A DNA stretch of 64,000 nucleotides, from positions 1 through 64,000 of IMG/VR virus record IMGVR_UViG_3300027902_000001. One strand, 5' to 3'. The notes below the pieces were generated by a model. That model was not told the origin of the DNA, did not search any database, and saw only the letters and a program-made list of their open reading frames with translations. Origin of the DNA: a virus. Made by a program: the position numbers and the translations under genes. This document shows positions 11,373 to 12,487 of this stretch, in pieces (position 1 is the stretch's first letter; every line of letters starts with the position of its first letter).

Positions 11373-11493
11373 CTATAACGGTTGAAATAAGCTGCCCGTC
11401 ACACTTCCAACAAAACGGGCTGCGGTTCATCCGGGGACGATTTCCCCGGTGCGAGACCCGGCTGTTCGGGTCAGCTTGATTTCGTTGTTAGGC
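11373..11493 (-). repeat. attC-like integron recombination site, 121 bp
   Basis: Read on the minus strand the element starts with GCCTAAC (11493-11487), an exact inverse core (RYYYAAC). It then shows the AACGAAATCAAGCTG-type left arm and ends with GCTTATTTCAACCGTTA. The two ends are imperfectly complementary over about 20 bases, with unpaired bases as in folded attC sites. Inner hairpins fill the middle. The final core reads GTTATAG rather than GTTRRRY, so only G-T-T and one purine fit. It directly follows, and overlaps by 23 bases, the small zinc-protein gene, the usual place of an attC in a gene cassette. Confidence 0.6.
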
Positions 11494-11698
11494 GAGAAGC
11501 TGGCGATGACCAAGTCTGGTTGCTATCGTCCTTTCGCCAAACAATACGCGGTCCGAAACACGCAAAACAGATGAGATACCATCCTCGGGTTTCGCTCATA
11601 ACCCCAACCGCTTGCACAGGACGCCCCGGCGCTTTTCTCCCACACGATGCACAGACTACCTCCGTGTGTATTTCTCGCTCATCGCTCAAAATCTGCAT
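11471..11698 (-). CDS. Small zinc-ribbon-like protein (cassette gene)
   Basis: The 75-residue protein starts at an ATG with GGGGGTGAG upstream, only 14 bases after the GTTAGGC core of the preceding attC-like site. It has C-A-S-C-G near residue 16 and C-F-A-C near residue 45, a likely four-Cys zinc ribbon. The stop lies inside the next attC-like element. Short leader, single gene and stop in attC are classic gene-cassette architecture. Function unknown. Confidence 0.55.
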   Translation of the reverse strand: MQILSDEREIHTEVVCASCGRKAPGRPVQAVGVMSETRGWYLICFACFGPRIVWRKDDSNQTWSSPASRLTTKSS

Positions 11699-11712
11699 GT
11701 GCTCACCCCCAA

Positions 11713-11808
11713 GCCTAACGGTTGGCGTCAGCCGCAGCGGGTTGACGCACGTTCTCAGATTCGGCAGCGACACCTTTGGAACCGGCCAGCTTCATCCCGT
11801 TGTTAGAC
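11713..11808 (-). repeat. attC-like integron recombination site, 96 bp
   Basis: On the minus strand the element runs from GTCTAAC (11808-11802), matching RYYYAAC, to GTTAGGC (11719-11713), matching GTTRRRY. The bases next to both cores form an imperfect dyad. It lies 7 bases after the RNA ligase stop and 14 bases before the next gene start, so it separates two single-gene units exactly as an attC does. Sequence, length and placement agree; no integrase was found in the window. Confidence 0.7.
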
Positions 11809-11815
11809 GGGACAG

Positions 11816-12457
11816 TCAGAAGTCTCTGAATTTCAGTTTCCACATCACGCGCTCACCGCGTCTAGTGAACATGAGCGGTACTGTCCGTGCTACAATCCCC
11901 TCTCCGACATAGCTGGAATTTCCGCCTTCGGTCGCCGAAACTACACTGTGACCACAATTGAGAATGTGCGTCAACTCCCCTGCGGTGTGCGGTAGATAGT
12001 CAATCACTCCTAGGTCTGGCACGGTCAAAACGCTGAACCTAGAGGCTACGTCCTGCACAGCGTCAGGCTCTAGCCACCATTGCCCGACCAGCACATCAAA
12101 CAGACGCAAAGCGGAATCATGGCGATAGTTGCCGCCCTTCTGAATCTTGCCGCCATAGCCCTCACCAAATAGGATGACTTGCTGCCCAATGTCGAACACG
12201 TCGATCAGGCGCGTGAGCGGAAAGGCTTGACTTAGATAAGCTAACAGCGGCACGGGCATCTGAGCGTCATCGGTGCGTCCGGTATAGGTGACAGTCCCAT
12301 CCGGCGCTAGAATGACACGTACATTCATGCCGTCGATTTTTTCAGTGACCCACCACCGTTTGATATTGTCGAACTCTGCCAAGCGCGGCACGCCCGGCAG
12401 GACCTTGTGTGTGCGGTCATCGCGATTCCAAAGCGTTTCGATCTTTGGGTATTCCAT
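11816..12457 (-). CDS. RNA ligase family protein (cassette gene)
   Basis: The 213-residue protein carries the nucleotidyltransferase motifs of RNA ligases. Motif I is E-K-I-D-G with Lys40 as the likely adenylated residue. Later come F-G-E-G-Y-G-G (97-103), L-R-L-F-D-V (motif III, 117-122), E-G-I-V-A-R (motif IV, 186-191) and W-K-L-K-F (motif V, near 206-210). Such enzymes use ATP to seal RNA ends. I chose the ATG at 12457 because GAAGGGGG precedes it. The stop lies just before the 96-bp attC-like site, and GTTAGGA lies just upstream of the gene, so the gene looks like the first cassette of a two-gene array. It is small and lacks an extra C-terminal domain. Confidence 0.75.
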   Translation of the reverse strand: MEYPKIETLWNRDDRTHKVLPGVPRLAEFDNIKRWWVTEKIDGMNVRVILAPDGTVTYTGRTDDAQMPVPLLAYLSQAFPLTRLIDVFDIGQQVILFGEGYGGKIQKGGNYRHDSALRLFDVLVGQWWLEPDAVQDVASRFSVLTVPDLGVIDYLPHTAGELTHILNCGHSVVSATEGGNSSYVGEGIVARTVPLMFTRRGERVMWKLKFRDF

Positions 12458-12487
12458 GTGTCCCCCTTCGTCCCGTCCTAACGACAT

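Follow-up and report, generated by a model that had tools for sequence, protein, structure and literature searches.

Organization of the Locus

The window, as we call the whole 64,000-nt stretch analysed here, is part of an IMG/VR virus record of 73,495 bp. Its source is a phage. The sequence-only reading had described two integron-type gene cassettes inside a phage genome, and genes for a terminase large subunit, a portal protein, a DnaB helicase and a RusA resolvase were indeed detected in it. The array sits at the 3′ end of a leftward operon, with RusA on one side and a convergent rightward gene on the other. The features are as follows.

10377 to 11159, plus strand: convergent phage gene on the far side of the array, with a homologue in phage contig L070 (54% identical)
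11373 to 11493, minus strand: attC2, 121 nt, structurally intact; R'' box GCCTAAC, R' box in the array GTTATAG, target-derived
11378 to 11379, minus strand: last junction, G^TTATAG
11379 to 11718, minus strand: cassette 2, from TTAGGCTTGG... up to the G of the R' box of attC2
11471 to 11698, minus strand: gene of a 75-aa protein with two CxxC motifs, a probable zinc binder
11713 to 11808, minus strand: attC1, 96 nt, degraded; 3′ part as in the sites at L009 3268-3376 and L040 7025-7133
11719 to 12481, minus strand: cassette 1, from TTAGGACGGGAC... up to the G of the R' box of attC1 (from the sequence and model R1, below)
11816 to 12457, minus strand: RNA ligase gene, 213 aa (PF09414, E 5e-17; PHROG 548, E 1e-18)
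12478 to 12511, minus strand: putative attI-like docking element, GATAGGCGGAAACCTTCCGTCTATATGTC|GTTAG, with the dyad ATAGGCGGAA/TTCCGTCTAT and then G^TTAG
12481 to 12482, minus strand: first junction, G^TT, start of the array
12527 to 12967, minus strand: RusA resolvase (PF05866, E 3e-15), co-directional, its stop 44 nt upstream of the junction G

On re-reading the sequence, the positions and lengths given earlier for both attC-like sites (96 and 121 bp) proved correct, as did the array start GTTAGGA at 12482-12476. The leaders are very short (25 and 21 nt, counted from the junction G up to the ATG start codon), and the stops lie where they had been described, that of the RNA ligase 7 nt before attC1 and the second one within attC2. 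The RNA ligase was confirmed by its family match, while the 75-aa protein had no family match in Pfam and is, by its CxxC motifs, a probable zinc binder.

A search of the viral contigs through RusA and DnaB found no close relatives, and no contig with both flanks of the array was found there. Contig L070, related through the convergent gene, does not share the right flank and has no cassettes. In the window at 10019-11159 (plus strand) a small membrane protein gene is followed by one whose coiled-coil product shows a His...Cys pattern like that of caspase/CHAT proteins (AHMG...LAGCEN) and had no match in Pfam. The same pair lies in L070 at 1915-3071, and a seemingly similar arrangement in L009 at 9591-10755. 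A tRNA-Glu (TTC) gene was noticed in the window at 22360-22432 on the minus strand.

Structure of the attC Sites

The motif of the attC 5′ half was taken from the window, and a scan of 2.9 million viral contigs with it returned 36 stretches. Several of them extend into complete sites, although the matching 3′ half was outside the search motif. Seven viral-contig sites, with no sequence of the window among them, served to build a covariance model, R1. It recovered exactly two significant sites in the window, attC2 (80.5 bits, E 2.3e-18) and attC1 (30 bits, E 3.1e-5), the third-best match having E 4.2. Since R1 descends from the window motif, a second and independent model, R2, was made from ten class 1 integron attCs from plasmids such as R388. 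With R2, attC2 ranks first across the whole record (27.7 bits, E 1.6e-4; runner-up E 0.73), and attC1 was not recovered (E 4.7). For scale, the sole R2 match in Tetrasphaera phage TJE1 has 22.7 bits, and within the part searched of Pseudoalteromonas phage H101 there was one weak match only, so R2 may miss validated attCs. The proposal that an attC model would find both sites on the minus strand is thus borne out for attC2 by both models and for attC1 by R1 but not by R2.

The L''/L' stem of attC2 is near-perfect, with one extrahelical base (GAAAT(C)AAGCTG / CAGCTTATTTC), and the site folds with a z of -2.9. Its R'' box conforms to RYYYAAC, and its R' box, once closed on its own cassette, reads GTTAGGC and conforms to GTTRRRY. 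Pairing in the L''/L' helix reaches 98% across eight sites of the attC2 family, and two of its pairs differ on both sides; controls in which the partner was slid gave a whole-structure pairing of 23-45%, and shuffle control (a) was not exceeded.

In contrast, attC1 folded alone is weak (z -0.9 and -1.5) because its L'' arm is deleted. In the alignment with L009 3268-3376, 78 of 109 columns align and a 12-nt gap takes out this arm, which is missing relative to the L040 site as well. To judge from these alignments, attC1 is a worn attC. Recombination between two attC types was also considered as its origin, but a simple deletion was preferred. Of the imperfect dyads reported earlier, that of attC2 is near-perfect and that of attC1 lacks its L'' partner. 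By the independent model attC2 alone qualifies as an attC. It retains every structural part needed for excision, while attC1 without L'' is probably weak or dead and cassette 1 is probably fixed. A CALIN requires two or more neighbouring attCs and no integrase; here the two sites are 220 nt apart and no IntI was found, but the first site is degraded and the record may be incomplete.

Cassette Boundaries and the Circle Signature

When a cassette closes into a circle, its own start supplies the R' box, and the boundaries of both cassettes were compared on this basis. The start of cassette 2, GTTAGGC, agrees with its own R'' box GCCTAAC at 7/7 positions, whereas the R' box found in the array, GTTATAG, agrees at 0/3 variable positions. 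For cassette 1 an ungapped comparison with its own R'' gives 1/3 variable positions; its start GTTAGGACGGGAC, as read from the sequence, mirrors GTCCCGTCTAAC of attC1 over 12 bases with one extra base. In 18 cassettes of 8 arrays, the window included, the match with the own R'' was found at 43/54 variable positions against 25.5 expected, a value reached by none of 20,000 permutations. For the R' boxes present in the arrays the corresponding figure in the same 18 cassettes is 26/54. When the window is removed, the signature remains (39/48 vs 22.0 expected).

The first and last cores of the array are imperfect, as had been remarked, but they are not deviations, since insertion at G^TT predicts them. 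The last core GTTATAG is expected to be imperfect because its final six bases belong to the target. We infer that the empty site at the last junction would read ...TATATGTCG|TTATAGATACTCTG..., and the flanks joined without cassettes are predicted as TATATGTCG|TTATAGATAC.

The organization is thus that of integron gene cassettes, with one ORF and an attC, and a start complementary to the own R''. The claim that this integrase-less phage carries integron-type cassettes is supported by R1, by R2 for attC2 and by the circle signature. That we are looking at chance dyads beside ordinary phage genes, with no cassettes at all, is hardly credible: attC1 by itself does not rise above the noise of the independent model, but attC2 in two models, the circle signature and the relatives contradict this idea.

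A Conserved Element at the First Junction

A dyad of about 34 bp directly adjoins the first junction of the window array. The layout is a dyad, an A/T-rich stretch of about 9-10 nt and G^TTAG, and the dyad arms resemble the R boxes of cassettes. A scoring matrix trained without the window copy gave this copy 36.0 bits, while the next non-overlapping site in 73.5 kb had 11.1 bits and the best site in 20 shuffles 22.1 bits. When one phage at a time was left out, its copy was the top site at every locus tested.

Relatives of the element were found at the first junctions of six arrays in four other phages: L009 (two), L040, the phage of L003 (G001, two) and the phage of L038 (G003), where the strong copy is that of the second array. 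Divergent forms precede the first array of L038 and possibly that of L012. When 2.9 million viral contigs were scanned with a pattern for the element, with no attC reference and with the window's own record left out, just three sites were matched, two in L009 and one in L040, each at a first junction. A model from six copies, R3, then revealed an untrained seventh copy in G001 (E 1.4e-9; arm GTTAGGCGG), 20 kb from the first copy and followed by a small cassette-like ORF and then by the first part of an attC remnant. R3 matched all five phages of this attC group and none of eight other records; in cultured phages the element had no significant match. The distance from dyad to junction is near-constant in the seven strong copies of the five phages. 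The dyad has survived sequence changes, with 94% of cells paired, 3 pairs changed on both sides and slid controls at 28-55%.

Both junctions agree with insertion at G^TT outside an integron, as was proposed from the sequence alone, but the conserved element beside the first one speaks against an arbitrary site. The same applies to an off-target, attG-type insertion at a chance G^TT, as in bacterial genomes, with the dyad unrelated to it. Insertion by IntI1 at attG sites has been reported (cited in PMC12901181), and the right junction offers a plain G^TT (GTTATAG), but the same dyad near a fixed distance from the first junction in seven strong copies makes this explanation improbable. We also regard as quite improbable that the element is an operator, promoter or terminator of the cassette genes and not a recombination site. 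An operator with a -10 box could look like this, with a palindrome and A/T-rich sequence ahead of the first gene, but the distance to the recombination junction is almost fixed and the first genes downstream are unrelated in different phages. The region has no sigma-70 match and the element no T-run terminator, so that a role as promoter or terminator found no support.

The strongly matching copies have the position and the layout of an attI site: they stand at the first junction, with an inverted box and a G^TT core as in attI1. The attI1 of R388, GGGCAGTCGCCC TAAAACAAA|GTTAG, is laid out like the window element, and the minimal attI1 core is given as AAACAAAGTTRRRY (PMC12901181). The Shewanella attI quoted in PMC9892861 also has a dyad, 9-11 A/T-rich nucleotides and the G^TT of the first cassette. 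R3 on attI1 was not significant (E 1.9), and what the element shares with attI is therefore layout, not measured homology. Unlike attI sites, the window element has no adjoining intI and no significant sequence match, and several copies per phage occur among the relatives.

Arrays in Other Phages

The comparison arrays were found via the attC half-motif of the window, and all lie in uncultured contigs. The large terminase subunit of the window phage had no match in G001-G004, and in the neighbourhoods compared the only match was RusA, at 33% with G004, which indicates that these phages and the window phage are not close kin. G001-G004 have some genes in common with one another; one common gene lies within a few kb of the arrays (G001 23339-24049, G002 17511-18332, G003 3928-4683, G004 39174-39740). 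Each of the four has N6/N4- or C5-methyltransferases among its cassette genes. In G002 and G003 the element stands behind the same gene (57% identity) and is followed by different first cassettes, so that one orthologous site carries different cassettes. A methyltransferase that is cassette 1 in G003 recurs, 67% identical, as cassette 2 in G001. For the seven strong copies, the upstream gene is co-directional wherever it can be read, and the nearest stops of long ORFs are 24-261 nt away.

Several other arrays were seen. A long one on the minus strand of L040 (5000-8010), a phage contig with a terminase gene, has at least five model-supported attCs, another near 7520-7605, and encodes a C5 DNA methyltransferase and several tiny proteins. 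In the viral contigs L031 (1761-7172) and L020 (8279-10329), attC-like sites of other types are densely arrayed, and no strong docking element was found there. One stretch with a variant element occurs twice in G003 (L038), once at either contig end (68-122 and 41737-41791), an indication that the genome is complete and has a direct terminal repeat.

Absence of an Integrase and Search for a Donor

The window had been described as free of an integrase gene, and this extends to the rest of the record: neither the integron integrase family TIGR02249 nor the tyrosine recombinase family PF00589 matched in the 73,495 bp, a record that may be incomplete. The intI gene of a complete integron was therefore not seen in it. 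No IntI above the curated cut-off was found in the 11 records tested (G000-G010), and no copy of the element there adjoins such a gene. Among 84,980 genomes the strict type A pattern had 0 matches to a donor integron; four matches of the type B pattern were rejected as donors, because they lacked attC and are attributable to chance. The attC family of the window had no match in 50,697 phage records, and no relatives of its attCs were found in cultured phages and plasmids.

These results bear on the possibility that the element is a host attI which entered together with its cassettes by ordinary recombination and lost intI, without any active docking. A Shewanella prophage with attI and a CALIN is known (PMC9892861), every strong copy found precedes cassettes, and no empty copy was seen. 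However, the five phages have their copies at differing positions, by the ends of phage genes, three phages have two copies each (one of these divergent), no intI remnant is present, and the orthologous site of G002 and G003 is occupied by different cassettes. We consider a captured fragment unlikely, though worth keeping in mind.

The RNA Ligase Cargo

The motifs KIDG, EGIVAR and WKLKF of the RNA ligase are all intact. It belongs to the same family (PHROG 548) as the phage ligases of L002, Manatee Spring and Streptomyces phages. The L002 ligase (51% identity) is an ordinary phage gene without attC, whereas that of the window is a cassette, and the cassette pool is thus open to phage genes. 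The enzyme would mend RNA cut by host defence nucleases.

Relation to Known Systems and Possible Mechanism

It is useful to compare the array with what is known. Qi et al. 2023 (PMC9892861) described 17 CALINs in phages, among them Tetrasphaera phage TJE1, Polaribacter phage P12002L and Pseudoalteromonas phage PH101, and phage attCs recombined with IntI1; the attCs of TJE1 are experimentally active. The notion of cassette capture by viruses is therefore supported as a reading but is no novelty. Phage CALINs, IntI1-active phage attCs and methyltransferase cargo, found in the known arrays as in those of G001-G004, are on record there. In TJE1 the palindrome GTTAGACC/GGTCCAAC is followed by G^TTGGATGG and the array starts right after it, in the same order as in the window. 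Those authors took this palindrome, which has two inverted GTTRRRY motifs, for a terminator and possibly a site of off-target recombination. The window differs from the known phage arrays in its attC family, in its RNA ligase cargo and in the attI-like element common to five phages. Cassettes also enter attG sites at G^TT outside an integron, and according to PMC12901181 these diverge from classical att sites, whereas the phage element is conserved between phages. The conserved attI-like element at phage arrays appears to be new: none was found in the open-access literature searched, where only PMC9892861 came close to phage attI docking sites.

Integron-type cassettes carried by an integrase-less phage are thus supported. 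We think it likely that the elements are attI-like docking sites on the phage, filled in trans by a host integron integrase. This enzyme would bind the attI-like site on phage DNA and recombine it with the folded attC bottom strand of a cassette, presumably from the host, and the cassette would enter at the G^TT. Once inserted, it might be transcribed by read-through from the phage operon. More tentatively, at somewhat less than an even chance, the phage group may keep attI-like sites of its own without an integrase, often two per genome and at operon ends, where the host IntI would collect and exchange cassettes, as in a half-integron parasitising the integron of the host.

Phage CALINs have so far been regarded as rare and perhaps accidental. 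If phages with unrelated terminases share a conserved start site, and an orthologous place holds different cassettes, the capture of cassettes by phages would be a regular and site-specific process. Judging from the cargo, DNA methyltransferases in four related phages and here an RNA ligase, such phages may have access to counter-defence genes in ready-made form. The element offers a directly testable site and a sequence signature by which further cases can be found, and the arrays that it precedes suggest that such phages may use the integron enzyme of their host to collect genes.
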